This document shows positions 22,821 to 37,779 of a stretch of DNA of 64,000 nucleotides, one piece after another; position 1 is the first letter of the stretch, and the number at the start of each line of letters is the position of its first letter. The stretch is from the NCBI RefSeq assembly GCF_021191695.1, contig NZ_JAIWPT010000007.1, positions 124,001 to 188,000 of the forward strand, given 5' to 3'. The notes beneath the pieces were generated by a model. It had not been told where the DNA came from, did no database searches, and saw nothing but the letters and a program-made list of their open reading frames with translations. Source of the DNA: Proluteimonas luteida. GTDB lineage: Bacteria > Pseudomonadota > Gammaproteobacteria > Xanthomonadales > Xanthomonadaceae. A program made the translations under genes and the position numbers.

Positions 22821-22850
22821 TGGACAGCTCTTATGTAATAACATTACATT
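22821..22850 (+). promoter_or_regulatory. Promoter with Zur-like operator for the TonB/CobN operon
   Basis: -35 TGGACA (22821-22826) and -10 TACATT (22845-22850) are separated by 18 bp. Over the spacer and -10 lies ATGTAATAACATTACAT (22833-22849), perfect 7-bp arms with a 3-bp centre. Aligned with the E. coli-type Zur core ATGTTATANTATAACAT, it has the same length and centre and differs at three defined positions. Its position over the -10 fits repression. No Zur gene is in the window. Confidence 0.65.
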
Positions 22851-22890: not shown

Positions 22891-24846
22891 GTGCGTAGCC
22901 AGTCGTCCCTCGTCCCAATGGCGGCATGCCTTGCCGCGTTCGTCCCCATCTCGTCCGCCGCTGCCAGCAACGCCCCGGATGCCGCCGCGGTGGACCTCGA
23001 CACCATCGTCGTCACCGCCAGCGCGCACGAAACCAGGCTGCGGGATGCGCCGGCCTTCGTCGACGTCGTCACCCGCGACGAACTGCTGTCGCGGCCTGTG
23101 CTGGATCTTGCCGACGCCTTGCGCGGCTCCCCCGGCGTCTCGCTGAGCGGCATCGGCTTCAGCCGGCGGGGCATCCGCCTGCGCGGCATGGACAGCGAGT
23201 ACACGCTGGTGCTGGTCGACGGCAAGCGGGTCAGCGCGGCCAGCGATGCGATCGCCCATGCCGACTTCGACCTCGGCTGGATGCCGGTGGAGGCGATCGA
23301 GCGCATCGAGGTGGTGCGTGGACCGATGTCGTCGCTGTATGGCTCCGAGGCCCTGGGCGGCGTCGTCAACATCATCACCCGCCGGGCCACCGACCAGTGG
23401 CGCGGCAGTGCTGCCTACAACGGCGGTGTGGTTGCGGGCGGTCACGGCGGAGGCGTCTACCAGGCCGGCGTCTATGCCGGTGGCCCGCTGGTGCCGGACG
23501 TGCTGGGCCTGAGTTTCAACGGCGAGACGCGGCGCAAGGACGACACGCAGGATCCGGCGGACCCGAGGCTGTCGGAACAGGAAGGACGCGATGCCCAAAG
23601 CGGCAACCTCACTCTGACGTGGACGCCCGACGCGCGCCAGCGCATCGACGCGAGTCACCTGCAGGGTCGGGAGCGGCGCTGGCGCGACACCCTCCAGGCC
23701 GGTGGGGTACCGTACGTCTACGAGTCCGTCGACCATCTGGACCGGCGCCAGAGTTCGCTCAGCCACCAGGGCAGCTGGGGCTGGGGCGATACCCGCATCC
23801 GTGCTTACCGCTCGACGCTCGACCGCAGCAACCGCCGCAGCCAGGGCGCGGCGACCGCGCCGCAGTCGCTGGTCGACGACATCGTCGATGCGCAGGCCTC
23901 GACCCGTTTCGGCGAACGGCACCGGGTCACGGTCGGCGGCGAGTGGCGCCGCGAGCGACTGGAGGACGACACCGTCTCCGCCGGCGGCAGCGCCGGCCTG
24001 GTGCACCGTGCGTTGCTGCTGCAGGACGAGATCGACTTCGACGACACCTGGTCGCTGGTGCTGGGCAGTCGCGCCGACCATCACGACAAGTTCGGCTGGC
24101 ACCACAGCCCGCGTGCCTACGGCATCTTCCATGCCAGCGACCGCCTGACCTTCAAGGGCGGCGTGGGCAGCGGTTTCAAGGCGCCGACGCTCAAGCAACT
24201 GTCGCCGGAATACTCGGCGGTCGGCGGTGGCGGCATGTTCACCATCGTCGGCAACCCGGCGCTCAAGCCCGAGATCGCCACGACCTGGGAGCTGGGCGCG
24301 ACCTGGAGCGGAAGCGGCTGGTCCGCACAGGCCACCGCGTTCCAGAGCGACCTCGAGGATCTCGTGCAGACCCTGTGCCTGTCGGACTGCGGGATCCGCG
24401 GGCGTGAACTGCGCAGCTACGTGAATGTCTCGAAGGCGCGCATCCGCGGCGTGGAGCTGGCGGCAGACATCGCGCTGCCGGGCGGCTTCTCGCTGGACGC
24501 GAACTACAACTGGCTGCAGCCGCGCGACCGGGAGACCGGCCTGCCGCTGGTCGAGCGGCCGCGACACGGCGCGGCGGCGGCGCTGGCGTGGGCCGGCGAT
24601 GCGTGGCGCAGCGCGCTGCGTGCCGAGTACAAGGGCACGCAATGGCAGTCGGGCGCGGGCGCGCTGGTCGAACTGCCGGACTACACGCTGTGGTCGCTGG
24701 ACCTGGGCTATCGCATCACCGACCGGGTGCGCCTGCGTGGCGGGGTCGAGAACCTGACCGACGAGCGTCTCGCCGAGACCTCGGCGCTGTACGCCTATCC
24801 CGAAACCGGCCGCTACTACCACGTCGGCGTGAACCTGAGCTTCTGA
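22891..24846 (+). CDS. TonB-dependent receptor, BtuB/HmuR-like
   Basis: A 651-residue outer-membrane receptor, the usual length of the BtuB/FepA/heme-receptor group. The signal peptide ends near AASNA. A TonB-box-like stretch DLDTIVVTAS (about 33-42) is followed by the plug (DVVTRDELLSRPVLDLADALRGSPGV, VEVVRGP-type RIEVVRGPMSSLYGSEALGGVVNIITRR) and a 22-strand barrel ending in the canonical aromatic terminus YYHVGVNLSF. The GTG start has AGGG 6 nt upstream; an ATG at 22918 would leave a poor signal peptide. It is the first gene of the operon behind the Zur-like box; the CobN-like gene starts 2 bp after its stop. The ligand is unknown; a zinc complex or metallated tetrapyrrole is inferred from the operon. 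Confidence 0.9.
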   Translation: MRSQSSLVPMAACLAAFVPISSAAASNAPDAAAVDLDTIVVTASAHETRLRDAPAFVDVVTRDELLSRPVLDLADALRGSPGVSLSGIGFSRRGIRLRGMDSEYTLVLVDGKRVSAASDAIAHADFDLGWMPVEAIERIEVVRGPMSSLYGSEALGGVVNIITRRATDQWRGSAAYNGGVVAGGHGGGVYQAGVYAGGPLVPDVLGLSFNGETRRKDDTQDPADPRLSEQEGRDAQSGNLTLTWTPDARQRIDASHLQGRERRWRDTLQAGGVPYVYESVDHLDRRQSSLSHQGSWGWGDTRIRAYRSTLDRSNRRSQGAATAPQSLVDDIVDAQASTRFGERHRVTVGGEWRRERLEDDTVSAGGSAGLVHRALLLQDEIDFDDTWSLVLGSRADHHDKFGWHHSPRAYGIFHASDRLTFKGGVGSGFKAPTLKQLSPEYSAVGGGGMFTIVGNPALKPEIATTWELGATWSGSGWSAQATAFQSDLEDLVQTLCLSDCGIRGRELRSYVNVSKARIRGVELAADIALPGGFSLDANYNWLQPRDRETGLPLVERPRHGAAAALAWAGDAWRSALRAEYKGTQWQSGAGALVELPDYTLWSLDLGYRITDRVRLRGGVENLTDERLAETSALYAYPETGRYYHVGVNLSF

Positions 24847-24848
24847 AC

Positions 24849-27800
24849 ATGCGACGGTGGTTGTGCAGGGGGCTGGCCTGCCTGGCGCTGACGATGTCAT
24901 TGTGCGCGGGTGCATCGGCGGACGATGGCGCAGGGCCACAGGTGCTGGTCCAGGTCGTCGCCAGCGATTTCGTGCTGCCGTCCAAGGTCGCGCGGCTCGA
25001 TGCGCTGGGTCGCGACCAAGGTGTCCGCTTCGAATACGTCCCGGTCGAGCGCGATGGCGCGGCCGCGCGCGTCGCCGGTGCGGATCTGGTGATCCTGGAT
25101 ACGCCGCGGCCGTCGGACGTCGAACGCGTGCAGTCGGTGCTGGGCGACGCGCTCGCCACCAGCGCTGCGCCATGGGTGCGCGTGGGTGGCGGTCCGCCCG
25201 CGTCCGGTGCGCTGGACGGAGCGCAGGCCCGGCGCATCGCGGGCTACTACGCGGGCGGCGGCGAAGCCAACTACCGGCACCTGGCCGACTATCTGCTGCA
25301 GTGGAAACGCGGCGGTGATCTCGATGCGGTTCCGGCGCCGCGGCCGATGCCGGACACCGGCTACTATCATCCGGCCGCCGGGGACATCTTCGACCGGCGC
25401 GCGGATTTCGCCGCGTGGCGGCAACGGCACGCGCCGGGGCCGGGCGTCGCGCTGCTGGTCTCCGCCGGCAGCGTGGCCGCGCTGCAGACCGCGCTGGTCG
25501 ACAAGGTGATCGAACGCGCGGCGGCGCACGGCATCGGCGCCTTCGGCGTGTGGTTCGACGACGACGATCCCGCGGCGCTGCGCGAAGCGCTCGACGGCCT
25601 CGGGGCCGTCGCGGTCGTCAACATGACCCATCTGCAGCAGGGCGGCTTGCGCGCGGCGGAATTCCTCGCGCTCGACGTGCCGGTGATCCAGGGCCTCAAC
25701 GCCCGCCAGCAGGACCCGGACGCCTGGCGCGCGGCCGCCAGCGGCGTGCCGGCATCGCTCGCGGCCACCTTCATCGCCGTGCCCGAGATCTGGGGCGCGA
25801 GCGATCCACTGGTGCTGGGCGCGGTGGCGCGCGGCGAGCAGGTCGCGATTCCCGAGCAGGTCGAGCTGCTGGCCGGCAGGCTGGCGCGCATCGCGGCCCT
25901 GCGCGCCGAGCCGGCGGCGGACAAGCGCCTGGCGCTGTTGTTCTGGAACTACCCCGCCGGCGAGAAGAACCTGTCGGCGTCGAACCTCAACCTGCCGCGC
26001 AGCATCGCCGCGCTGTCGCAGCGCCTGCGCGACGCAGGCTATCGCGTCGACGCCGCCAGCGAGCGCGAGATCGTGGACATGGGCCAGGCGATGCTCGGCG
26101 GCTACTACCGACCGGAAACGCTCGACGCGCTGCTGCGCGACGATCTCGCCGACAGCCTGCCCGTGGCGCGCTACCGGCAGTGGCTGGACACGCTGCCCCC
26201 GCCGCGGCGAGATGCGCTGCTGGCGCAGTGGGGCGATCCGGCGCGGCACGCGTCGGTGCGCACGATCGACGGCGAACCTGCGTTCGTGTTCCCGCGCGCG
26301 CGCCTGGGCGACCTGCTGCTGATGCCGCAGCCGCCACGCGCGGGCCGGATCGGCGAGGCCGCGCACGACCAGGAGGCGGTGCCCAGCCACTACTACCTGG
26401 CCGCGTACCTGTACCTGCGCGAGGGTTTCGCCGCGGACGCGCTGATCCATTTCGGTACCCACGGTACCCAGGAATGGACCCCGGGCAAGGACCGCGCGCT
26501 GTGGGCCGGCGATTACCCGTACCTGGCGGTCGGCGACGTGCCGGTGTTCTATCCCTACGTCCAGGACAACATCGGCGAGGCGATGCAGGCCAAGCGCCGC
26601 GGCCGCGCGGTCACGATCAGCCACCAGGTGCCGGCGTTCGCGCCGGCCGGCCTCTACGACGAGATGCGCGACCTGCATGCGCTGATCCACCAGTACCAGC
26701 AACTGGATGCGGGCGGCGTGCGCCTGCGCACCGGCGCGGCGATCGGCGAGGCGGCGCTCGCCGCGGGCATCGCCGGCGACATGGGCTGGGACCGGGCGGC
26801 GATCGCCGCCGACATCGACGGGTTCCTGCCGCTGTTGCACGACCACCTGCACGAGCTGGCGCGCAGCGCGATGCCGCTCGGCCTGCACACCTTCGGCGAG
26901 CCGGCTGCCGACGAGCACCGGCTCTCGACCGTGATGCAGCAGCTCGGTGCGCCGTTCTACGAGGCGCTGGGCCTGGATCCGGACGAAGTGTTCGCCGCGG
27001 ACTTCGCGGCGCTGGCGCAGAGCCTGCCCTACCGCACGCTTGCGCACCATCTGCACGGCGCGGGCCGGATCGAGGAAACCGGCCATCCCGCGCTGCGCGC
27101 GCAGCTTGCGCGTGCGCGCGAACTCGACGCCGCACTGCTCGACACCCAGGAAACCGAATCGCTGCTGCGCGGCCTGGCCGGTGGATTCGTGCCGCCGGGG
27201 CCGGGCGGGGATCCACTGCGCGATCCGGGCCTGCGCAGCGGCCGCAACCTGCACGCGCTCGAACCCGACAAGGTGCCCACGCCCGCCGCCTACGAGACCG
27301 GAGGCGAGGCCCTGCAGCAGTTGGTCGATGCCTACCGGCGCGACCATGGCGGCGACGCTCCGGCCAAGCTCGCCTTCAGCCTGTGGTCGTCGGAAACCAT
27401 CCGCCAGCTCGGCGTGCAGGAGGCGCAGGTGCTGCACGCGCTCGGCCTGCGGCCGGTGTGGGACGCGGGTGGCCGGCTGACCGCGCTGGAGATCATCCCG
27501 GCCTCGGAGCTGGGGCGCCCGCGCATCGATGTCGTGGTCCAGGCGACCAGCGTCTACCGCGACCAGTTCGATGGTTTCATGCGCCTGCTGGCCGCGGCCA
27601 TCGAGCGGCTGGCTGCCGAGGGCGATGCCGGCAATGCGGTCGCGCGCAACAGCGCCGCGGTCGCCGAGCGCCTGCGCGCGCAGGGCGTGGAGGCGGCGCG
27701 TGCGCAGGCGCTCTCGACGCTGCGCATCTTCAGCAACGCGCCCGGCGAGTACGGCAGCGACCTGAGCGGTGCGGTACTGGATGACGGCGAAGATGCCGCC

Positions 27801-28775
27801 AAGGACGACGCCACCCTGGCCGGCGTGTTCCTCTCGCGGCTGCAATACGGCTACGGCGCCAGCGAGCAGGGCGTTTCGGTCGAGGGCGCCAACGTCTTCG
27901 CCGAGCAGTTGCGCGGCGTGCAGGCCGCGGTGCTGTCGCGCTCGTCCAACACCCATGGCGTGCTGTCGACCGACCACCCCTTCGAGTACCTCGGCGGACT
28001 GTCGCTGGCGATCCGCCACCTCGACGGCGCCAGCCCCGCGCTGTACGTCAGCGACCTGCGCAGCGCCGCGCCGCGCACCACCGGCGCCGCCCAGTTCCTG
28101 GCCGCCGAGCTGCGCAGCCGGCAGCTCAACCCGCAGTGGATCGGTGCCATGCAGCAGGAGGGCTACGCCGGCACGCTGCAGGTGCTCGATGCGGTCAACA
28201 ACCTGTACGGCTGGCAGAGCACGGCGCCGGACGTGGTGCGCGACGCGCAGTGGCAGGCGATGCACGACACCTACGTGCGCGACGTGCGCCAGCTGGGTAT
28301 CGACCAGTGGTTCGAACGCGACAATCCGACCGCGCAGGCGCAGATGATCCAGCGCATGCGCGAGGCCATCGCGCGCGGCTACTGGCAGGCCGATGCCCGC
28401 ACCCGGGCCGAACTGGAGGCGCGGCTGCAGGCCATCGGGCAGGCGTTGTCGGCGACCGATACCACCGCGTCGGCAGCGCCTGCGCCCGGCTTCGGCACCA
28501 ACGCGCCTGACGTCCCTGCGCATCCCGCCGTTGCGGCGCCCGTGGTCGAGCCACCGGCGGACGCGGCAACCGCGCCGGAGCCGGCCGCTGCGCCGCCGCA
28601 GGTCCGCGGGCGGGTCATGCGCCAGGTCGAACCCCCGCCTGCGGTGCAGACCGGCTTGCGCGTGCCGGTGCTGTTGCTGCTGGCGCTGTGCCTCGTGGCC
28701 GGCGCCTGGCGACAACTTCGCGGCGGCCATCGCCGTATCCATTCCCTCTTCCCGGACAACCGGACAACGCAATGA
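24849..28775 (+). CDS. Exported, tail-anchored CobN/HmuS-like chelatase
   Basis: A 1308-residue member of the CobN / Mg-chelatase H family. Unlike cytoplasmic CobN it has an N-terminal signal peptide (residues 1-24, ASA/DD) and one C-terminal transmembrane helix (about 1272-1290) after a Pro/Ala-rich linker, so the enzyme body should face the periplasm. Family motifs are intact: HFGTHGTQEWTPGK (from H534), GRNLHALEPDKVPTPAAYETG, LWSSETIRQLGVQEAQVLHALGLRP, RIDVVVQATSVYRDQF, RIFSNAPGEYGSDL, and SSNTHGVLSTDHPFEYLGGLSLA. This architecture matches HmuS of the Bacteroidota hmuYRSTUV heme operons, and, as I recall, the Zur-controlled PA1922-PA1925 operon of Pseudomonas aeruginosa. It may insert or remove metal from a tetrapyrrole, or strip metal from a chelate; the direction cannot be told from sequence. 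There are no CobS/CobT AAA+ partners in the window. Confidence 0.88.
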   Translation: MRRWLCRGLACLALTMSLCAGASADDGAGPQVLVQVVASDFVLPSKVARLDALGRDQGVRFEYVPVERDGAAARVAGADLVILDTPRPSDVERVQSVLGDALATSAAPWVRVGGGPPASGALDGAQARRIAGYYAGGGEANYRHLADYLLQWKRGGDLDAVPAPRPMPDTGYYHPAAGDIFDRRADFAAWRQRHAPGPGVALLVSAGSVAALQTALVDKVIERAAAHGIGAFGVWFDDDDPAALREALDGLGAVAVVNMTHLQQGGLRAAEFLALDVPVIQGLNARQQDPDAWRAAASGVPASLAATFIAVPEIWGASDPLVLGAVARGEQVAIPEQVELLAGRLARIAALRAEPAADKRLALLFWNYPAGEKNLSASNLNLPRSIAALSQRLRDAGYRVDAASEREIVDMGQAMLGGYYRPETLDALLRDDLADSLPVARYRQWLDTLPPPRRDALLAQWGDPARHASVRTIDGEPAFVFPRARLGDLLLMPQPPRAGRIGEAAHDQEAVPSHYYLAAYLYLREGFAADALIHFGTHGTQEWTPGKDRALWAGDYPYLAVGDVPVFYPYVQDNIGEAMQAKRRGRAVTISHQVPAFAPAGLYDEMRDLHALIHQYQQLDAGGVRLRTGAAIGEAALAAGIAGDMGWDRAAIAADIDGFLPLLHDHLHELARSAMPLGLHTFGEPAADEHRLSTVMQQLGAPFYEALGLDPDEVFAADFAALAQSLPYRTLAHHLHGAGRIEETGHPALRAQLARARELDAALLDTQETESLLRGLAGGFVPPGPGGDPLRDPGLRSGRNLHALEPDKVPTPAAYETGGEALQQLVDAYRRDHGGDAPAKLAFSLWSSETIRQLGVQEAQVLHALGLRPVWDAGGRLTALEIIPASELGRPRIDVVVQATSVYRDQFDGFMRLLAAAIERLAAEGDAGNAVARNSAAVAERLRAQGVEAARAQALSTLRIFSNAPGEYGSDLSGAVLDDGEDAAKDDATLAGVFLSRLQYGYGASEQGVSVEGANVFAEQLRGVQAAVLSRSSNTHGVLSTDHPFEYLGGLSLAIRHLDGASPALYVSDLRSAAPRTTGAAQFLAAELRSRQLNPQWIGAMQQEGYAGTLQVLDAVNNLYGWQSTAPDVVRDAQWQAMHDTYVRDVRQLGIDQWFERDNPTAQAQMIQRMREAIARGYWQADARTRAELEARLQAIGQALSATDTTASAAPAPGFGTNAPDVPAHPAVAAPVVEPPADAATAPEPAAAPPQVRGRVMRQVEPPPAVQTGLRVPVLLLLALCLVAGAWRQLRGGHRRIHSLFPDNRTTQ

Positions 28776-29260
28776 ACATCCTCGAAGCTGGTCTCTACGA
28801 CCTCGCCCACCTGTTCCTGGTGCCGGTGCTGGTACTGATCCTCGCGTCGCTGGCCTACGCCTTCTTCGCACTCGGCGCGTTCCTGGTCGAGGCGCTGCAG
28901 CGCCGGCTCGGCAGCTACCGCTCGCGGCTGCAAGCCTTCCAGGCCCGCAGCGGCGGCAGCAGCGACGATCTCGAACTCTGGATCCTCAAGCGCCTGGAAT
29001 GGCTGCGGGTGACCTCGCGCATCGCGCCGATGCTCGGCTTGGTCGCGACCATGATCCCGATGGGACCGGCATTGCTCGCCCTGACCCGAAACGACGCACA
29101 GGGGGTCGGCGAGAACCTGGTCGTCGCGTTCTCGTCGGTGATCCTGGCGTTGATCGCGGCCAGCATCACCTTCCTGGTGCTGACCATCCGCCGGCGCTGG
29201 CTGCTGCAGGAACTGCGCGATATCGAGCGCGCCCGGGACGCCGGCGGAGTGGCCGGCTGA
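28772..29260 (+). CDS. MotA/TolQ/ExbB-family proton-channel protein (HmuU-like)
   Basis: A 162-residue inner-membrane protein with three predicted helices: about 10-38 (AHLFLVPVLVLILASLAYAFFALGAFLV), about 85-108 (RIAPMLGLVATMIPMGPALLAL, the ExbB/TolQ-type pore segment with a Gly and Pro) and about 118-142 (VAFSSVILALIAASITFLVLTI). The start overlaps the CobN-like stop by 4 nt (ATGA) and the next gene overlaps its own stop, so the three proteins should be made together. It likely couples proton flow to the receptor or to the chelatase. It is short compared with true ExbB. Confidence 0.85.
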   Translation: MNILEAGLYDLAHLFLVPVLVLILASLAYAFFALGAFLVEALQRRLGSYRSRLQAFQARSGGSSDDLELWILKRLEWLRVTSRIAPMLGLVATMIPMGPALLALTRNDAQGVGENLVVAFSSVILALIAASITFLVLTIRRRWLLQELRDIERARDAGGVAG

Positions 29261-29589
29261 TGCGCTTCCTCGAACACGACGAGGCCGACGACCCGATCCT
29301 GTCGGTGGTCAACCTGATCGACCTGTTCCTGGTGGTCATCGGCATCCTGATGATCGTCATCGTGCGCAACCCGCTCAACCCCTTCGCCAGCGAACGGGTG
29401 ACGGTGATCGAGAACCCCGGCGCCGCGGACATGCGCATCACCGTCAAGGACGGCGAGGAACTGACCCGCTACGAGTCCACCGGCGAGATCGGAGAAGGTG
29501 GCGGCGTACGCGCCGGCGTCACCTACCGGCTGCCGGACGGACGCATGGTGTACGTGCCCGAGGGCGGCGGGCAGGCGGAGGCGGAGTGA
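29260..29589 (+). CDS. DUF2149 protein (HmuV-like)
   Basis: A 109-residue protein: a short cytoplasmic start (MRFLEHDEADDPILSVVNLIDLF), one transmembrane helix (about 22-36, FLVVIGILMIVIV) and a small periplasmic domain. The topology is like ExbD/TolR: the acidic NLIDLF segment sits at the start of the helix where ExbD carries its proton-carrying Asp. This is the DUF2149 family, which occurs beside CobN-like and MotA/ExbB-like genes. It probably forms the ExbD-like partner of the upstream channel. Its ATG overlaps the previous stop (TGATG). Confidence 0.85.
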   Translation: MRFLEHDEADDPILSVVNLIDLFLVVIGILMIVIVRNPLNPFASERVTVIENPGAADMRITVKDGEELTRYESTGEIGEGGGVRAGVTYRLPDGRMVYVPEGGGQAEAE

Positions 29590-29635: not shown

Positions 29636-31363
29636 TCAGCGCACCCCGTGCATCCAGCGCCGCACCAGCGGCGCCAGCACGAAGTAGGCGATGCCCGAGC
29701 CGACACCGATCCACAGCATCAGCTGGAACAGTTCGCCGTACTTCGCCGCGGCCGCCGCCATGTCCAGCACCTCGCCTTCCAGTACGTCCATCGAGGTCAG
29801 TTTGCCGAACTGTGCGGCCAGCACCTCCGAGTACGCGGTCGCCAGCCAGAACGCCCCCATCATCAGCCCGACCACGCGCGTGACCGACAGCTGGGTCACC
29901 GCCGACAGGCCGATCGGCGACAGGCACATCTCGCCCAGTTCCAGCAGGAAGTAGGCCAGCACCAGCCACCAGACGCTGGCCAGCACCCCGCCGCCGGCCG
30001 ACTGCGCGGCCAGCATCAGCGGCACGAACGCCAGGCCGGCGAACACCAGTCCGATCGCCATCTTCGCCGGCTTGCTCGGATTGAGGCCGCGCCGGTCCAG
30101 CCACGGCCACAGCCACGAGAACACCGGCGCCAGCACCACGATGAAGAACGCGCCGAGGAAGGTCAGCGAGCCCGCGGTCTGCGGCACCAGCACCACGTCG
30201 TGGACCAGCGCGACCGCCAGCGCGGCCACCATCGCGACGACCGCGGCCCTGGCCAGCCCGGCATTGCCGCGGTCGCTGGCGCGCAACGCGGTCACCATCA
30301 GCAGCGGGCTGCCGGCCAGCGCGAAGATCGCCCACGGGATGCCGGGCTGGTAGCCGCCGGGGGTCAGGCCGAACAGGTCCTTGGTCAGCATGCGGTCGGT
30401 GAACGTGACCCAGGAGCCGTAGGTCTGCTCGTACAGGGTGAAGAAGATCAGCACGCCGACGATCAGCAGCACCAGCGCGAGCATCTGCTGGCGCTCGACC
30501 TTCGTGCAATGGCGCACCAGGAACCAGACGAACCAGGCCGCCAGTGCGACGGCGATCAGGTGCATCGCCCCGTGCACGGTCCAGGTGCGCTGGATCAGTT
30601 GCCACACCACCAGCGCGCCGGCGAAGCTGCCCAGATAGATCCACCATTCGCGCGACAGCGGACCGACGCGCTGGCGCAGCTTCTCCGGGTCGTTGGGCTC
30701 TGCGTGGCCGTACAGGTACTTCTGGCCCCAGACGAACACGATCAGGCCGGCGACCATGCCGATGCCCGCGGCGCCGAAGCCGTACTTCCAGCCATAGGTT
30801 TCGCCGAGGAACGCGCAGACCAGGCTGGCGAACAGCGCGCCGACGTTGATGCCGGCATAGAACAGGGTGAAGCCCGAATCCCGGCGCGGGTCGTCGGGCG
30901 CATAGAGCTTGCCGACGATCGTCGAGATGTTGGGCTTGAGGAAGCCCACGCCCATGATGATCAGCGCCAGCGACAGGTAGAACACCTGTAGCGCGGCGGT
31001 GTCGCGGACCACCACGCCGTCGACGATGCGCGCCTGCTCGCCCTCGTATGCCATGCCCAGGTGCCCGAGCACCAGCAGCACGCCACCGAGCACCACCGCC
31101 TTGCGCATGCCCAGGTAGCGGTCGGCCAGCAGCCCGCCGATCACCGGTACCGCGTAGACCAGGCCGCCGTAGGCGCCGAGCAGGTCGTAGCCGGCGTCGT
31201 CGCCGAACAGGTGGTACTTGAGGATGTACAGCAGCAGCAGCGCCTTCATCCCGTAGAACGAGAAGCGTTCCCACATCTCGGTGAAGAAGCAGACGAAGAC
31301 GCCCTTGGGGTGGCCGAGGAAGTCGGTGCCGGCGCCGTCGCCGGAAGGAATGGCTGCGCCCAA
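29636..31363 (-). CDS. POT-family proton-coupled oligopeptide transporter
   Basis: A 575-residue inner-membrane symporter of di- and tripeptides, with about 14 helices. The E-x-x-E-R signature of helix 1 (FFTEMWERFSFYGMKALL) and the helix 4-5 region LALIIMGVGFLKPNISTIVG with FYAGINVGALFA are diagnostic. The TTG at 31363 is preferred as start: GGAG lies 8 nt upstream, and a good promoter ends 30 nt before it, ruling out longer versions. It is divergent from the tandem S9 peptidases, which could supply its substrates. Confidence 0.9.
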   Translation of the reverse strand: MGAAIPSGDGAGTDFLGHPKGVFVCFFTEMWERFSFYGMKALLLLYILKYHLFGDDAGYDLLGAYGGLVYAVPVIGGLLADRYLGMRKAVVLGGVLLVLGHLGMAYEGEQARIVDGVVVRDTAALQVFYLSLALIIMGVGFLKPNISTIVGKLYAPDDPRRDSGFTLFYAGINVGALFASLVCAFLGETYGWKYGFGAAGIGMVAGLIVFVWGQKYLYGHAEPNDPEKLRQRVGPLSREWWIYLGSFAGALVVWQLIQRTWTVHGAMHLIAVALAAWFVWFLVRHCTKVERQQMLALVLLIVGVLIFFTLYEQTYGSWVTFTDRMLTKDLFGLTPGGYQPGIPWAIFALAGSPLLMVTALRASDRGNAGLARAAVVAMVAALAVALVHDVVLVPQTAGSLTFLGAFFIVVLAPVFSWLWPWLDRRGLNPSKPAKMAIGLVFAGLAFVPLMLAAQSAGGGVLASVWWLVLAYFLLELGEMCLSPIGLSAVTQLSVTRVVGLMMGAFWLATAYSEVLAAQFGKLTSMDVLEGEVLDMAAAAAKYGELFQLMLWIGVGSGIAYFVLAPLVRRWMHGVR

Positions 31364-31393
31364 GGCCCGTGCTCCGGCTCGATCGAAGGCGCG

Positions 31394-31421
31394 AGTATAG
31401 GCCCGTGCCACCATCCGGCAA
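31394..31421 (-). promoter_or_regulatory. Promoter of the POT transporter gene
   Basis: Minus strand -35 TTGCCG (31416-31421) and -10 TATACT (31394-31399) with a 16-bp spacer, 30 bp upstream of the TTG start. Confidence 0.6.
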
Positions 31422-31547
31422 CATGACGGAAGGCACGCCGGACGGCCCGGGGCTGGGCTAGTATCCGCCTGACCGCCTTTCCCGGGGAGCGTCCGTCCGG
31501 ACGCGTGGAGGGCGGTTTTCGACAACATCCTCAAAGGGGGAGACAAC

Positions 31548-33515
31548 ATGATCCGCAAGGGATTGCAGTGGCTGTGCATGGTGATGGTGCTGGCGGCCTG
31601 CCTGGACCTGCATGCGCAGGTCGACCTGGCGCCGTTCGTCGAGGAAGACGGCATCCGCGACATCAAGATCTCGCCGACCGGCGAGTACTACGCGGTGACG
31701 TTGCCGCTGGGCGACCGCACCGCCGTGGGCATCATGCGCCGCGCGGACCGGACGATCGCGGGCAGCTTCCGCCTGCCGAAGAACACCCATGTCGCCGACT
31801 TCTGGTGGGCCAACGACGAGCGTCTGGTGTTCGGCCTGGCAGAGCGTTTCGGCTCGCGCGATTTTCCGTCGGCGACCGGCGAACTGTATGGCATGAACGT
31901 CGACGGCGGCCGCGCGCAGTTGCTGGTCGGCTGGCGCGTGCAGGGCACCCAGACCGGCACGCGCATCCAGAGCGGTGCCAAGGAAGAGTTCGTCCATGCC
32001 TGGCCGATCGACCTGCTGCCGGACGACCCGCGCAACATCCTGGTGTCGGTCTCTCCGTTCACCCGGGACCCGGTGAGCCGGGTCGATCGCATGGACGTCT
32101 ATACCGGCCGGCGCACGACGGTGGCGACGGTGCCCGTCAATCGCGCGAGTTTCCTGACCGACCATGCCGGCGAAGTCCGGTTCGCGGTCGGCGCGCGCGC
32201 CGACAACCTCAGCCGTCTCTACTACCGCGACGGACGCGGCGCGGACTGGCAGCTGATCAACGACGAGCGCACCAGCGGCCGCCTGGAATCGCCGGTCGGC
32301 TTCTCCGGCGACGATCGCAAGGCCTACCTGCGCGTGTCCCAGCCCAGCGGGCCGGATGCGATCGTCGAGCTGGACGTCGCCAGCGGCGAACGGCGGGAAC
32401 TGCTGCGCGACGCGCTGGTCGACCCGGAGATCGTCTACCGGCCGGGCACTTCCACGCCGGTCGGCGTGCGCTACCTCGGCGCGACGCCGCGACTGGTGTT
32501 CTTCGACGAAGCGTCCGAGGACGCGCGGCTCGGGCGCATGTTCGAGAAGGCCTTCCCCGGACAGGTCGTCAGGATCGCGTCGGCGACCCGCGATGCCTCG
32601 GTCAAGCTGTTGCTTGCGACCAGCGATGTCGATCCGGGCAGTTTCTTCACCTACGATGCGCCGACCAAGAAGGCCGATTTCGCGCTCGCGCGCCGCAACC
32701 AGGTCGATCCCGAGCGGATGGCACCGATGCAGGGCGTCTCGCTGCCGGCACGCGACGGCCTGATGCTGCATGGCTATCTCACCCGGCCGGCGTCCGCAGC
32801 CGCGGACCGGCCGTTGCCGCTCGTCGTCCTTCCGCACGGCGGGCCGTTCGGCATCTTCGACGACTGGGCGTTCGATCCCGACGTGCAGTTGCTGGCGCAG
32901 GCCGGCTATGCGGTGCTGCAGCTCAACTTCCGTGGCTCGGGCAACTACGGCCGCAGCTTCCGCCAGGCCGGCGCGCGCCAGTGGGGCGGCACCATGCAGG
33001 ACGACCTGACCGACGCGACGCGCTGGGCGATCGAACAGGGCCACGCCGACCCGCAGCGCATCTGCATCTACGGCGGCAGCTACGGCGGCTATGCCGCGCT
33101 GATGGGGGTGGCCAGGGAGCCGGACCTGTACCGCTGTGCAGTCGGCTACGTGGGCGTCTACGACCTGCCGCTGATGCGCAGCCAGGACCGGCGCGGCGGC
33201 ATGTGGCTGCGCACCTGGGTGGACGAATGGGTCGGCAACGACGTGCAGCGGCTCGGCGAGACCTCGCCGACGCGGCTTGCCGGCCGGATCCGGGCGCCGG
33301 TGCTGCTGGTCGCCGGCGGCGAGGACGAGATCGCGCCGGTCGAGCACACCCGGCGCATGGAGCGCGCGCTGCGCGGCGCCGGCGTGCCGGTGGAGACGAT
33401 GTACGTGGACAACGAAGGCCACGGCTTCTACAAGCCCGAGAACCGGCGCGCCTACTACACCCGGCTGCTCGCGTTCCTGTCGACGCACCTGGGCGGCGCG
33501 ACCGCCGCGGAGTGA
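31548..33515 (+). CDS. Exported S9 family (prolyl-oligopeptidase-like) peptidase, copy A
   Basis: A 655-residue serine peptidase with a signal peptide (MIRKGLQWLCMVMVLAACLDLHAQ; the Cys could also be lipidated). A seven-bladed propeller-like N-terminal half is followed by an alpha/beta-hydrolase domain with S511 (GGSYGGYA), D593 (GGEDEIAP) and H625 (NEGHGF). HGGPFG marks the oxyanion region. It should cleave short peptides in the periplasm or outside. It is the first of two tandem paralogues; copy B follows after 125 bp. It is divergent from the POT importer, suggesting a shared peptide-use role. Confidence 0.9.
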   Translation: MIRKGLQWLCMVMVLAACLDLHAQVDLAPFVEEDGIRDIKISPTGEYYAVTLPLGDRTAVGIMRRADRTIAGSFRLPKNTHVADFWWANDERLVFGLAERFGSRDFPSATGELYGMNVDGGRAQLLVGWRVQGTQTGTRIQSGAKEEFVHAWPIDLLPDDPRNILVSVSPFTRDPVSRVDRMDVYTGRRTTVATVPVNRASFLTDHAGEVRFAVGARADNLSRLYYRDGRGADWQLINDERTSGRLESPVGFSGDDRKAYLRVSQPSGPDAIVELDVASGERRELLRDALVDPEIVYRPGTSTPVGVRYLGATPRLVFFDEASEDARLGRMFEKAFPGQVVRIASATRDASVKLLLATSDVDPGSFFTYDAPTKKADFALARRNQVDPERMAPMQGVSLPARDGLMLHGYLTRPASAAADRPLPLVVLPHGGPFGIFDDWAFDPDVQLLAQAGYAVLQLNFRGSGNYGRSFRQAGARQWGGTMQDDLTDATRWAIEQGHADPQRICIYGGSYGGYAALMGVAREPDLYRCAVGYVGVYDLPLMRSQDRRGGMWLRTWVDEWVGNDVQRLGETSPTRLAGRIRAPVLLVAGGEDEIAPVEHTRRMERALRGAGVPVETMYVDNEGHGFYKPENRRAYYTRLLAFLSTHLGGATAAE

Positions 33516-33548
33516 GGGAATCCGGCGCCGCCTTGCCACTGCGGCTGC
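33411..33548 (+). repeat. Near-identical 3' segment of S9 paralogues (first copy)
   Basis: It aligns without gaps to 35507-35644. The first ~85 bp are identical, and about five mismatches fall in the rest, which extends past the stop codon into the spacer. The genes just upstream of this stretch are clearly more diverged. Confidence 0.85.
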
Positions 33549-33640
33549 GCCCGATGTCTGCAACAGACCGACTGGCACGCCTTGGTGCCTGCGGTGCGCA
33601 CCGTAGGCGAGGGCGTCGGCAGGCGCCCGGGAGGGAAGGG

Positions 33641-35611
33641 ATGAAACGGTTTCTGCTGCCGGCCTTGCTGGGCCTTGCCTGCATGGCGCTGCCCGCGATG
33701 GCGCTGCCCCCGGTCGACGTCGCGATCCATGCCGATGAAGGCGGGTTCCGCGACGTCCGGCTGTCTCCGACCGGCGAGTATCTGGCGGTCACGATTCCAT
33801 CGGGCGACCACACGGTATTCGCCGTGCTGCGGCGTGACAGCAGGGCGGTCGTCGGCAACTTCCAATTCCCCAAGGGCGTCCACGTCGCCGATTTCTGGTG
33901 GGCCAACGCCGGACGGGTACTGATCGCGGTCGCCGAACGCTTCGGATCCCGCGACTATCCATCGGCCACCGGCGAGCTGTACGCAATGAACGTCGATGGT
34001 GGCGAGCGCGGGTTGCTGGTCGGCTGGCGGGTGGCGCTGCAGCCCACGGGGTCGCGCCTGCTCGACCAGAAGCGCGAGGGCGGCGCGGTGTTCGCCTGGC
34101 CGGTCGACCTGCTGCCGGACGACGACCGCCACGTCCTGGTGTCGGTTTCCCCGTTCTCCCGGGAGCCGCAGACGCGGGTCGAGCGGATGAACGTCTATAC
34201 CGGACGCCGCACGCAGGTGGCGTCCGTGCCGGTCACGCGGGCCAGCTTCCTCACCGACAACACGGGCGCGATCCGCTTCGCCAATGGTGCGCGATCGGAC
34301 AATCTGAGCCAGCTCTACCATCGCGCCGATGACGGCGCCCCCTGGCAACTGCTCAATGACGAGCGCCAGAGTGGAGTCCTGCAGATCCCGCTCGGCTTCG
34401 CCGACGACAACGTGACCGCATATCTGCAGGTCAGCACGCCCAGCGGACCGGACGAAGTGGTCGCACTGGACACCCGCTCCGGCGAGCGCCGGGTGGTCGC
34501 GCGCGACACGGTGGCCGATCCGCGGCCGATCCATCGTGACGGCGTTGGTGCAACCGTCGGCGTGCGCTTCCTGTCTGGCAAGGCGCGGACGCAGTTCTTC
34601 GACCCGCAGTCCGGGGATGCGAATTTCCATGCGCTGCTGGAGAACGCGTTTCCCGACAGCGAGGTATCGGTGTCCTCGGCCACCCGCGACGGGCGCCTGA
34701 AGCTGGTGCTCGTCGCCAGCGATATCGACCCCGGCAGTTTCTATCTGTTCGATTCGGTCAGCAAGCAGGCTTCGTTCCTGCTTGCGAGGCAGGATCGTAT
34801 CGATCCTGCCGTGATGGCGCACATGCGCCCGGTGTCTTTGGCCGCGCGCGACGGCCTGCCGTTGCACGGCTATCTGACCTTGCCGCCGGGGGCCACGCCG
34901 GCAACCCGATTGCCGACGGTGGTCGTGCCGCATGGCGGGCCGTTCGGCATCTTCGATCGATGGGGCTTCGACGCCGATGCGCAACTGCTTGCGGCTGCCG
35001 GCTACGCGGTGCTGCAGGTCAATTTCCGCGGCTCCGGCAACTACGGCCGCAGCTTCCGGCAGGCCGGCGCCAGGCAATGGGGCGGCACGATGCAGGACGA
35101 CGTCACCGATGCCACGCGCTGGCTGGTCGGGCAGGGGATCGCCGATCCCGGACGCATCTGCATCTATGGTGCCAGCTACGGAGCCTATGCCGCGTTGATG
35201 GGCGTCGTGCGCGAGCCCGACCTGTACCGCTGCGCTGCCGGCTATGTCGGCGTCTACGATCTTCCCAAGATGCGGACCGAGGACGGCCGGGTCAGCCGCT
35301 CCATGCGGACCTGGAGCAGCGAATGGGTCGGGACCGACCAGACAGCACTGGCCGCGGTGTCTCCGAACCGGCTGGCCGACCGCATCAAGGTGCCTGTGCT
35401 GCTGGCGGCGGGTGGCGAGGACGAGATCGCGCCGATCGAACACAGCCGCATGATGGAGCGCGCGCTGCGCGGTGCCGGGGTACCGGTGGAAACGCTGTAC
35501 TACCCGAACGAAGGCCACGGCTTCTACAAGCCCGAGAACCGGCGCGCCTACTACACCCGGCTGCTCGCGTTCCTGTCGACGCACCTGGGCGGCGCGGCCG
35601 CCGCGGAGTGA
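33641..35611 (+). CDS. Exported S9 family peptidase, copy B
   Basis: A 656-residue paralogue of the preceding gene, alike along its full length (shared blocks such as HVADFWWAN, AERFGSRD-PSATGELY-MNVDGG and NFRGSGNYGRSFRQAGARQWGGTMQDD). It has a signal peptide ending at PAMA. The triad is S512, D594 and H626. The nucleophile elbow reads GASYGAYA, where most S9 enzymes including copy A have Gly in place of the second Ala, so activity may differ. GGGAAGGG precedes the ATG. Its last ~105 coding bases and ~35 following bases are nearly identical to copy A. Confidence 0.88.
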   Translation: MKRFLLPALLGLACMALPAMALPPVDVAIHADEGGFRDVRLSPTGEYLAVTIPSGDHTVFAVLRRDSRAVVGNFQFPKGVHVADFWWANAGRVLIAVAERFGSRDYPSATGELYAMNVDGGERGLLVGWRVALQPTGSRLLDQKREGGAVFAWPVDLLPDDDRHVLVSVSPFSREPQTRVERMNVYTGRRTQVASVPVTRASFLTDNTGAIRFANGARSDNLSQLYHRADDGAPWQLLNDERQSGVLQIPLGFADDNVTAYLQVSTPSGPDEVVALDTRSGERRVVARDTVADPRPIHRDGVGATVGVRFLSGKARTQFFDPQSGDANFHALLENAFPDSEVSVSSATRDGRLKLVLVASDIDPGSFYLFDSVSKQASFLLARQDRIDPAVMAHMRPVSLAARDGLPLHGYLTLPPGATPATRLPTVVVPHGGPFGIFDRWGFDADAQLLAAAGYAVLQVNFRGSGNYGRSFRQAGARQWGGTMQDDVTDATRWLVGQGIADPGRICIYGASYGAYAALMGVVREPDLYRCAAGYVGVYDLPKMRTEDGRVSRSMRTWSSEWVGTDQTALAAVSPNRLADRIKVPVLLAAGGEDEIAPIEHSRMMERALRGAGVPVETLYYPNEGHGFYKPENRRAYYTRLLAFLSTHLGGAAAAE

Positions 35612-35644
35612 GGGAACCCGGCGCCGCTTTGCCACCGCGGCGGC
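35507..35644 (+). repeat. Near-identical 3' segment of S9 paralogues (second copy)
   Basis: This is the partner of 33411-33548, offset by 2096 bp. Identity across the stop codon and spacer points to gene conversion or to the breakpoint of the tandem duplication. Confidence 0.85.
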
Positions 35645-35685
35645 GCCGGCCTACCATGCGGGCTCTTTGTCCGGAGCCGCCCGCC

Positions 35686-37779
35686 ATGTCCCTGCGTCTT
35701 GCGCTGTTGCCCTTGTGCCTGCTGGTGGCGTTGCCCGCCGCCGCCCAGACCCGGGGCCTCGATGTCCGCGACCTGGTGCAGCTCGACCGGGTGTCGTCGC
35801 CACTGCTCAGCGACGACGGCCGGCTGCTGGTGTTCGCGCAGCGCGCGCTGGACTTCGATTCGGGCAAGGCCGAGACGGCGCTCTACGCCCGCAACCTGCT
35901 GACCCGCGACATGGCGCCGCCGCGGCGGATCACGCCCGAGGGCTGGAACGTGAACTCGGCGACGCTGTCGCCCGACGGGCAGACGCTGTACTTCCTCAGC
36001 GGCAGGAACGGCAGCTCGCAGCTGTATGCGATGCCGGCCACCGGCGGCGAGCCGCGGCAGCTGACCGACGTCGCGGTCGACATCGGCAGCTACCAGCTTT
36101 CGCCCGACGGTACGCGCATCGCCTTCAGCGCCGACACCTTCGGCGAGTGCGGCGCGGACCTTGCGTGCACGAAGCGCAAGCACGCGGAGGCCGCGGACGC
36201 CAAGTCCACGGGCGTCGTCTACGACCAGCTGTTCGTGCGCCACTGGGACACCTGGCGCGACGGCACCCGCAGCCGCCTGTTCGTCGCCGAGCTGCCGGCC
36301 GCCGGCGCCGCGCCGGTGACGACTGTGCGCGCGGCCGGCCATGCGCTCGAAGGCGACATCCCGTCCAAGCCGTTCGGCGGCGCCGAGGATTACGTCTGGT
36401 CGCCCGACGGCCGCACCCTGGTCGCCAGCGTCAAGGTGGCCGGCGCGGCGGAACCGTGGTCGACCAACTTCGATCTGTACCGCATCGACGCGCTCGGCGA
36501 TGCCGCCCCGGTCAACCTGACCGCGGACAATCCGGCCTGGGACACCGGCCCGGTGTTCAGCGACGACGGCGCGACCCTGTTCTACCGCGCGATGAAGCGC
36601 CCGGGTTTCGAAGCCGACCGCTACGCGCTGATGGCGCTGGACGTCGCCAGCGGCGCCGCGCGCGAGATCGCGCCGGACTGGGACCGTTCGCCGAGCAGCG
36701 TGGCGCCGTCGGCCGATGGCAGCGCGCTGTACGTGGCTGCGCAGGACACCGGCGAGTACCCGCTGTTCCGGGTCGATGTCGCCAGCGGCGAAGTCACGAA
36801 ACTGCTGGCCGACGGCACCGTGTCGTCGTTCGTCGTCGCCGGCGACACCGTCGCACTGACGCGCAACACGATCGACAGTGGCGACACGCTCTACACCGCG
36901 TCGCTGCAGGGTCTCGAGACCGGCGCCGCGCTGCGCCAGATCACCCCGACCGCCGCCGAGCGCCTGCCCGACGTCGCCTTCGGCGACTACGAGCAGTTCT
37001 CGTTCAAGGGCGCCGGCAACGCCACCGTCTACGGCTACGTGGTCAAGCCGTGGAATTACCAGGAAGGCCAGACCTATCCGGTCGCCTTCCTGATCCATGG
37101 CGGTCCGCAGGGCAGCTTCGGCAACGGCTGGAGCTACCGCTGGAACCCGCAGACCTATGCCGGGCAGGGCTATGCGGTGGTGATGATCGATTTCCACGGC
37201 TCGACCGGTTATGGCCAGGCGTTCACCGATGCGATCAGTGGCGACTGGGGCGGCAAGCCGCTCGAGGACCTGCAGAAGGGCTGGGCCGCCGCGCAGCAGC
37301 AGTATGCGTTCCTCGACGGCGACCGCGCCTGCGCGCTCGGGGCCAGCTACGGCGGTTACATGATCAACTGGATCGCCGGCAACTGGTTCGACCGCCAGGG
37401 CAACTCGCCGTGGAAGTGCCTGGTCAACCACGACGGCGTGTTCGACACGCGGTCGATGGGATACGTGACCGAGGAGTTGTGGTTCACCGAATGGGAGAAC
37501 GGGGGCACGCCGTTCGACCAGCCGAGCAACTACGAACGCTTCAACCCGGTCAACCATGTCGCCAACTGGAAAGTACCGATGCTGGTGGTCCAGGGCGAGA
37601 AGGACTACCGCGTGCCGGTCGACCAGGGCCTGTCGACGTTCACCGCGCTGCAGCGCAAGGGCATCGAGTCGAAGCTGCTGTACTTCCCTGACGAGAACCA
37701 CTGGGTCCTGCAGCCGCACAACAGCGTGCTGTGGCACGACACCGTCAACGCCTGGCTCAGGCAGTACATCGGCCGGTAG
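35686..37779 (+). CDS. Exported S9 family dipeptidyl/oligopeptidase
   Basis: A 697-residue S9 peptidase from a different subgroup than the two upstream copies. It has a signal peptide (residues 1-20, ...PAAAQ), a beta-propeller half with WD40-like blades (LSPDGQTLYFLSG, LSPDGTRIAFSADTFGECGAD, WSPDGRTLVAS, FSDDGATLFYRA), and a catalytic domain with HGGPQGSFGNGW, S554 (GASYGGYM), D640 (GEKDYRVP) and H672 (DENHW). These features resemble DPP5-type enzymes. It is probably co-directional with, but may be separately transcribed from, copy B. Confidence 0.9.
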   Translation: MSLRLALLPLCLLVALPAAAQTRGLDVRDLVQLDRVSSPLLSDDGRLLVFAQRALDFDSGKAETALYARNLLTRDMAPPRRITPEGWNVNSATLSPDGQTLYFLSGRNGSSQLYAMPATGGEPRQLTDVAVDIGSYQLSPDGTRIAFSADTFGECGADLACTKRKHAEAADAKSTGVVYDQLFVRHWDTWRDGTRSRLFVAELPAAGAAPVTTVRAAGHALEGDIPSKPFGGAEDYVWSPDGRTLVASVKVAGAAEPWSTNFDLYRIDALGDAAPVNLTADNPAWDTGPVFSDDGATLFYRAMKRPGFEADRYALMALDVASGAAREIAPDWDRSPSSVAPSADGSALYVAAQDTGEYPLFRVDVASGEVTKLLADGTVSSFVVAGDTVALTRNTIDSGDTLYTASLQGLETGAALRQITPTAAERLPDVAFGDYEQFSFKGAGNATVYGYVVKPWNYQEGQTYPVAFLIHGGPQGSFGNGWSYRWNPQTYAGQGYAVVMIDFHGSTGYGQAFTDAISGDWGGKPLEDLQKGWAAAQQQYAFLDGDRACALGASYGGYMINWIAGNWFDRQGNSPWKCLVNHDGVFDTRSMGYVTEELWFTEWENGGTPFDQPSNYERFNPVNHVANWKVPMLVVQGEKDYRVPVDQGLSTFTALQRKGIESKLLYFPDENHWVLQPHNSVLWHDTVNAWLRQYIGR

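Follow-up and report, generated by a model that had tools for sequence, protein, structure and literature searches.

What might a protein with the build of a cobaltochelatase do on the outer face of the inner membrane? Canonical CobN works in the cytoplasm, where it is driven with ATP by CobS and CobT, as are the cytoplasmic BchH and ChlH by ChlI and ChlD. The question is raised by an open reading frame at positions 24849..28775 (plus strand; 1308 amino acids, no internal stop) of a 64,000-nucleotide stretch of the Proluteimonas luteida genome (contig NZ_JAIWPT010000007.1, positions 124,001 to 188,000 of the forward strand; hereafter, the window), the product of which is predicted to be a membrane-anchored periplasmic chelatase of the CobN/HmuS fold. 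We suggest, with a probability of about one half, that the operon to which this gene belongs serves zinc acquisition; that is, a receptor would import a chelate, the periplasmic chelatase would run in reverse to strip Zn(II) from it, and a unit formed by an ExbB-like and a DUF2149 protein would drive the reaction. The system itself is real and conserved, and it is probably misannotated.

Membership of the CobN family, proposed in a first-pass annotation of the sequence, is borne out by a full-length match to Pfam CobN-Mg_chel (chelatase residues 132-1185, profile positions 2-1089 of 1090, E 4.4e-285). The NCBIfam model NF004644 (CobN) scores 1717 bits (cut-off 1248) across residues 11-1296, and proteins of such build consequently bear the name cobaltochelatase; in the 4.1 Mb genome (99.98% complete), the window chelatase is the sole CobN/Mg-chelatase match. 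Its predicted signal peptide (residues 1-24; 24849..24920, plus strand) reads as MRR, a hydrophobic core and A-S-A preceding DD, and recurs among homologues. At the other end, a single hydrophobic stretch from about residue 1270 (a C-terminal transmembrane helix at approximately residues 1270-1288, predicted from hydropathy and sequence; 28656..28712, plus strand) leads into a short basic tail rich in Arg and His; under the positive-inside rule, this tail would be cytoplasmic and leave the chelatase body in the periplasm. In a simple hydropathy scan, the N-terminal core reached at least 1.5 in 75 of 84 homologue rows and the C-terminal segment did so in 80 of 84 (rows that include the window copies L001 and L082, the same-genus copies L085 and L086 and the cut frames L021, L033 and L085; some of the rows below threshold have cut frames or doubtful start codons). 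As the layout is shared across most homologues, it reads as a family trait rather than chance, and the predicted extracytoplasmic location of the chelatase body is well supported. The signal peptide, the anchor and the periplasmic body given by the first-pass annotation thus stand as predictions, and the inside-out layout that it described is real but not unprecedented, given that the membrane-anchored CobN-like HmuS of Bacteroides was published in 2025 as a heme de-chelatase with the same topology (PMC12583661). Topology and class of chemistry are already known from HmuS, which turns heme into protoporphyrin in an NADH-dependent reaction.

The four genes of the operon follow one another in the order TonB-dependent receptor, chelatase, ExbB-like, DUF2149. 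The outer-membrane receptor gene (22891..24846, plus strand; 651 amino acids; Pfam TonB_dep_Rec_b-barrel and Plug; best NCBIfam score to CirA, below cut-off) ends 2 bp before the chelatase start; ATGA is common to the chelatase stop and the start of a gene for a MotA/TolQ/ExbB-like proton-channel protein of the HmuU type (28772..29260, plus strand; 162 amino acids; Pfam MotA_ExbB, E 1.2e-06, 28.8 bits for a cut-off of 22.9); and TGATG is common to that gene and the gene for a DUF2149 protein of the HmuV type (29260..29589, plus strand; 109 amino acids; Pfam DUF2149), which has one transmembrane helix with an ExbD-like motif. Of the overlapping ExbB/ExbD-like pair described earlier, the overlaps and the identity of the first member are confirmed, but the second member belongs to DUF2149 and not to the Pfam ExbD family: DUF2149 was matched in 47 of 47 such second proteins, and Pfam ExbD in only one (E 0.15). 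Asp21 in the DUF2149 transmembrane helix is invariant (47/47 aligned sequences) and stands in register with the transmembrane Asp of ExbD in a weak hhalign match (probability 24.5%); an AlphaFold2 model of the protein (predicted template-modelling score (pTM) 0.33) was judged too weak for a fold search.

The arrangement recurs in the best 80 of the 94 relatives found (39-66% identity to the window chelatase; the named loci, or 81 loci with the window). Behind the chelatase, the ExbB-like and DUF2149 genes follow in this order in 80/80 named loci, and DUF2149 occurs in 17 of 398 Pseudomonadota genomes, where a CobN/Mg-chelatase match stands within 1 kb of 17 of its 18 copies and 2.4 kb from the remaining one, so that the physical linkage of the chelatase to the small membrane proteins holds well beyond the window. 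A receptor of the window type with an anchorable start is present in 73 of the 81 loci (the receptor frame is broken in L032 and L066); six of the remaining eight have a TonB-dependent receptor of another type there according to Pfam (L015, L018, L023, L054, L068 and L080), and two are cut by a contig end (L033 and L065). The hosts are Alpha-, Beta- and Gammaproteobacteria, plus one metagenome-assembled genome labelled as a cyanobacterium (L068), which has sequence ends resembling the Bosea copy and may be contaminated. Within the genus of the window, the chelatase is patchy (6/37 genomes, the window's own included); that genus appears to be Luteimonas, as the same-genus copies L083 and L084 have tblastn values identical to those of the Luteimonas loci L005 and L009. 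COG0523/cobW-type genes (GFLG[AV]GK motif) accompany at least 9 of the 81 loci, a count reduced from the 12 given by single-linkage clustering after the members were inspected, and the Bosea locus (L015) has a Fur-family gene, a cobW-family gene, the receptor gene and the chelatase gene lined up one after another.

The link to zinc, which the first-pass annotation had missed, comes from the DNA ahead of the receptor. At 22830..22842 (no strand assigned) lies a Zur-operator-like site, CTTATGTAATAAC, with one mismatch to the Zur core GTTATNNNATAAC, a match reached by 1 of 2000 dinucleotide shuffles of the upstream region; the palindrome GTAATAACATTAC was also considered as the operator and rejected, as the overlapping CTTATGTAATAAC is the better match. 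The core is in agreement with a published Zur consensus, GWWAYWNNNTWHCR (PMC10393844), and with the operator of zrm (PMC8456098). Sites with at most one mismatch lie between -250 and +30 of the receptor start in 42 of 73 loci, as against 0.5% of 13799 windows drawn at random from these loci, and such sites also stand upstream of 15 of 229 other genes there (some of them cobW-like). With the reach widened to -450, such sites are found in 50 of 73 loci (22 perfect) versus 0.94% of 7300 dinucleotide shuffles, although the 50 do not count as independent, given the shared ancestry of related species. In other pseudomonads (L046, L052, L071 and L077), the receptor is preceded by a perfect site; in several Stutzerimonas loci (L012, L013, L020, L025, L034 and L044), perfect sites lie farther out; and five of the eight loci without an anchored receptor of the window type carry a Zur-like site in the flank (L015, L018, L023, L068 and L080). 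Of the Fur-family proteins encoded in the genome, one is a Fur that exceeds its NCBIfam cut-off, and another has Zur as its best model (131.9 bits, below the cut-off of 167). Zinc regulation of the operon through Zur, as predicted from these sites, is well supported. A second near-consensus Zur-type site of the genome, outside the window (G000:C1:20885-20897; L101:3386-3398), lies between the gene for another TonB-dependent receptor and a divergent one for a periplasmic binding protein with a FecCD permease domain; the arrangement resembles PA2911-PA2914 of Pseudomonas aeruginosa, and the site overlaps the first possible start codon of the receptor reading frame.

Published data bear on the apparent counterpart of the operon in P. 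aeruginosa, PA1922-PA1925. In a znuA mutant, PA1922 (receptor), PA1923 (CobN-like), PA1924 and PA1925 were up 147-, 122-, 45- and 56-fold, and a Zur site was predicted (PMC4542158); gel-shift assays showed binding of Zur to the PA1922 promoter (PMC8531726); in zinc-depleted cells, PA1922, PA1923 and PA1925 were more abundant (p >0.05 for PA1923 and PA1925), with PA1924 undetected (PMC11761036). One review described Zur control of PA1922 as seemingly unique to P. aeruginosa within its genus, on the basis of 150 bp of upstream sequence (PMC10393844), and the perfect sites in other pseudomonads and in Stutzerimonas make this statement look too narrow. In a search outside which most subscription papers and bioRxiv preprints fell, we found no paper that links HmuS with the zinc uptake regulator. 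The zinc link across Proteobacteria, together with the zinc de-chelation proposed here, is what we add.

What the enzyme might do is suggested by its active site. The AlphaFold2 model of residues 25-1195 is confident (mean predicted local distance difference test score 91.3, pTM 0.91; 50 alignment rows, that is, the window and 49 of the 80 named loci), and among PDB entries the sequence profile is closest to HmuS (658 bits, compared with 565 and 542 for CobN and 540 for ChlH). In 79 family sequences (after two window copies, two same-genus copies and one broken frame were dropped), His538 (HFGTHG; 26460..26462, plus strand), which alignment to HmuS (9d26) equates with catalytic HmuS His538, is invariant (79/79 for this His, within an HFG(T/A)HG motif). 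The segment DHPFE (residues 1042-1046; 27972..27986, plus strand) supplies the equivalents of HmuS Asp1208, His1209 and Glu1212 as Asp1042 (79/79), His1043 (78/79) and Glu1046 (78/79), and HmuS Ser1014 and Ser1199 are kept in 71/79 and 79/79. In CobN, this Asp-His-x-x-Glu segment reads Asp/Asn-Asp-x-x-Gln in five of six rows, with Gly in place of Ser1014 in all six; the single BchH row has Asp-His-x-x-Asp. The parts of HmuS that hold its site-1 heme are only partly retained: the ligand His254 has an equivalent in 77/79, and the ligand Met79 is replaced by Pro in 78/79 and by Ser in one (in an alignment register taken from the profile match). The methionine-rich domain IV insert of HmuS is absent from the window protein (0 Met in a 75-residue stretch; the relatives L165 and L166 have 2 Met in 75). 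We infer that the active site is of the de-chelatase type, that its substrate pocket differs from that of HmuS and that the HmuS site-1 heme is missing. The family is further enriched in a His triplet, HDHLH (residues 664-668; 26838..26852, plus strand; His664 in 75/81, His666 in 70/81 and His668 in 74/81), the full motif of which was not seen in aligned HmuS or CobN rows and which is a possible zinc-binding site.

A quick tree (53 rows, LG+G4) does not group these proteins with HmuS or CobN; it carries support only from the Shimodaira–Hasegawa-like approximate likelihood-ratio test (SH-aLRT) and has long branches, an arbitrary root and one aberrant row that lacks the catalytic His (L122). Twenty-eight family rows (26 of the 79 family sequences plus L165 and L166) form one clade (SH-aLRT 100), seven CobN rows form another (SH-aLRT 100) with the window family outside it, and the part of the tree opposite the family is occupied by HmuS, the anchored clade L169-L173, CobN, BchH and three unplaced rows. 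Sister to the 28 rows are six other membrane-anchored proteins (L157 and L159-L163; SH-aLRT 99 for the pair), and in four of the six the ExbB-like and DUF2149 genes precede the chelatase. Upstream of their receptors, the best matches to the Zur core have two or three mismatches, and Fur-like matches (4 to 6 mismatches of 19) are reached by 1 to 7 of 500 shuffles in five of six cases (70/500 in the sixth), which suggests that this clade is an iron-linked counterpart. L169-L173 form a third membrane-anchored clade, with an HSTYEFLP segment and linkage to divergent ExbB/DUF2149 genes; we considered them as proteobacterial HmuS and rejected this, given their Asn-Asp-x-x-Asp active-site segments and the near-equal scores of the one tested (349 bits to HmuS versus 345 to CobN).

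Taken together, we propose the following sequence of events. On zinc starvation, Zur would leave its operator and the operon would be expressed; the TonB-dependent receptor would bring a zinc-carrying chelate into the periplasm; and there, on the periplasmic face of the inner membrane, the class I chelatase-fold enzyme would run in reverse and strip the metal from the chelate, with the proton-driven ExbB/DUF2149 unit supplying the work that ATP-using partners give to CobN and ChlH. As the genome contains a ZIP-family gene and no ZnuA match was found in it, periplasmic Zn(II) would need the ZIP protein or another carrier to enter the cell. The likeliest chelate would be a zinc tetrapyrrole because the active-site His and the Asp-His-Glu set of HmuS are kept, and a target metal that does not have to be reduced would agree with the loss of the heme ligand Met79. 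A ferrochelatase is also present, and the organism can therefore probably make its own heme. In its most far-reaching form, the proposal would make this the first zinc de-chelatase, removing Zn(II) in the periplasm without ATP, at the expense of the proton-motive force, from a zinc tetrapyrrole (for example, a zincophore of the zinc coproporphyrin type) imported through its own receptor, and HmuS would belong, as a single branch, to a broader class of periplasmic chelatases that work in reverse and are divided according to metal and regulator; we advance this form tentatively and consider it doubtful as a whole.

Several observations weigh against reading the operon as a zinc de-chelation system. 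De-chelation by the window family is a predicted activity, and the match of PA1923 to the window chelatase is drawn from gene order and annotation rather than from sequence. In structural comparisons, CobN stands above HmuS: Foldseek ranks CobN 7c6o first (TMq 0.85), then HmuS 9d26 (0.83) and then ChlH, and VIA-align gives Z 50.3 (root-mean-square deviation (rmsd) 3.6, 1086 residues aligned) for 7c6o, Z 40.7 (rmsd 4.9, 1103 aligned) for 9d26 and Z 48.4 (rmsd 10.3, 1039 aligned) for ChlH 4zhj. HmuS also stands on a long branch apart from the family in the tree, where its row is incomplete and joined from printed alignment pieces. The equivalent of His1209 is a His in the BchH row as well, so that this residue alone is no marker of a de-chelatase, and two cavity residues of HmuS are replaced in the family (Trp1202 by 53 His, 21 Asn, 4 Tyr and 1 Gln; Gln1198 by Ser or Thr), so that tetrapyrrole binding is not assured. 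As mentioned, no ZnuA match was found in the genome. With regard to regulation, 23 of the 73 loci, among them the close relatives L003 and L005, lack any site of at most one mismatch in the 450 bp covered; at this stringency, the Zur core occurs at five places in the 4.1 Mb genome, as does a reversed control, which leaves position rather than count informative. The gel shift of the PA1922 promoter by Zur, moreover, was seen even when no metal was added, and its authors raise a link to cobalt (PMC8531726).

The part of the proposal most exposed to an alternative is the motor. HmuU and HmuV, the counterparts of the small membrane proteins, are drawn with the receptor by the authors of HmuS (PMC12583661, Fig. 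1 legend), which is a further point against chelatase coupling, and PA1924 has been suggested to have such a role (PMC4542158); ExbB/DUF2149 may accordingly be an auxiliary TonB motor that energizes the receptor and has no action on the chelatase, an explanation that is compatible with chelate import and reverse chelation and that we regard as a serious contender, if somewhat short of an even chance. The distribution of the genes argues the other way. The chelatase–ExbB–DUF2149 core remains intact with receptors of other types in the six loci listed above and without an adjacent receptor on an Azospirillum plasmid (L123, for which the gene table is incomplete), and in the archaeon Methanosarcina acetivorans, which lacks an outer membrane, the genome holds both DUF2149 and CobN/Mg-chelatase families. 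Such persistence favours a motor for the chelatase, and we regard proton-motive coupling of the enzyme through ExbB/DUF2149 as possible but unproven. The companion claim of the first-pass annotation, that no AAA+ partner is at hand, holds as far as the genome yields no CobT or CobS_N match; partners of the ChlI/ChlD type were not searched for.

If zinc control were secondary, or heme acted only indirectly, the chelatase could instead be an ordinary heme de-chelatase, that is, an HmuS orthologue that takes the iron of heme. HmuS is the best PDB match by sequence, the catalytic residues and the His254 equivalent are kept, and the companion genes hmuR, S, U and V match the content of the window operon (PMC10434189). 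We nevertheless consider this unlikely, given that the methionine-rich insert and Met79 are lost as described, that the family does not group with HmuS in the tree, and that its sites are Zur-like, whereas Fur-like matches occur in the sister clade. Neither hmuY nor hmuT was found in the operon, and a complete hmuYRSTUV is thus absent; on Met79, the insert and operon content, orthology to HmuS was rejected.

A simpler zinc-based account, in which the receptor takes up zinc in unchelated form while the CobN-like protein, devoid of chelatase chemistry, serves as a zinc-binding store or chaperone in the periplasm, also appears improbable to us. Import of free zinc has been suspected in reviews (PMC8456098 and PMC10393844), and the His-rich HDHLH motif would suit a metal-binding role, but a protein of 1300 residues with an intact catalytic His set would make an odd metal chaperone, and the motor genes track the chelatase. 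Least probable is a route for cobalt or a cobalt corrinoid, in which the chelatase would handle cobalt that substitutes for zinc: the CobN annotation of NCBIfam, the rise in cobalt in the P. aeruginosa znuA mutant, from which a cobalt role was speculated (PMC4542158 and PMC11761036), and the metal-independent binding of Zur, read by its authors as a possible cobalt link (PMC8531726), speak for it, but the active-site segment is HmuS-like rather than of the CobN type, CobT and CobS_N are without a match in the genome, and cobalamin control is not supported, the window and 18 of the loci having yielded no Rfam riboswitch above threshold.

Beyond the operon, positions 29636-37779 contain a gene for a peptide transporter of the POT family and, behind it, one for an S9 prolyl-oligopeptidase (31548-33515; these two were scanned with Pfam), a similar region of open reading frame that ends at 35611 and looks by eye like a tandem copy, and a third peptidase-like open reading frame, which suggests a peptide-use cluster.

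In many proteobacteria, CobN-like genes of this layout are named cobaltochelatases, and reading them as de-chelatases of zinc starvation would correct that annotation. If true, the zinc de-chelation model would provide proteins of the PA1923 type, hitherto unexplained, with a chemistry that can be tested, point to zinc tetrapyrroles as a source of zinc for bacteria and open the question of whether a motor of the ExbB type can drive an enzyme instead of a transporter. Among known systems, PA1922-PA1925 of P. aeruginosa shares Zur control and gene order (receptor, CobN-like, ExbD-annotated and hypothetical, next to receptor, chelatase, ExbB-like and small protein in the window), whereas the published readings are of cobalt handling or free-zinc import, not of de-chelation. 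CobN has the same fold and Pfam family but differs in its place in cob gene clusters, in the Asp/Asn-Asp-x-x-Gln segment and in having neither signal peptide nor anchor; BchH/ChlH has the fold and the equivalent of catalytic His538, but the BchH row (L121) lies within a bacteriochlorophyll cluster. HmuS of Bacteroides and Porphyromonas has helices at both ends, and the P. gingivalis protein made in Escherichia coli was found in the inner membrane with a C terminus that is possibly exposed to the periplasm, as its authors cautiously put it (PMC13227078), which is no simple match to the cytoplasmic tail predicted for the window chelatase. With HmuS the window chelatase shares the signal peptide and anchor, the chelatase fold, His538, the Asp-His-x-x-Glu segment, an upstream TonB receptor gene and downstream ExbB-like and DUF2149 genes; it differs in the missing methionine-rich insert, Met79 ligand, hmuY and hmuT, in control of the Zur type rather than the iron type, and in its separate clade in the tree. 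It is a zinc-linked relative of HmuS, and neither HmuS itself nor a cobaltochelatase.

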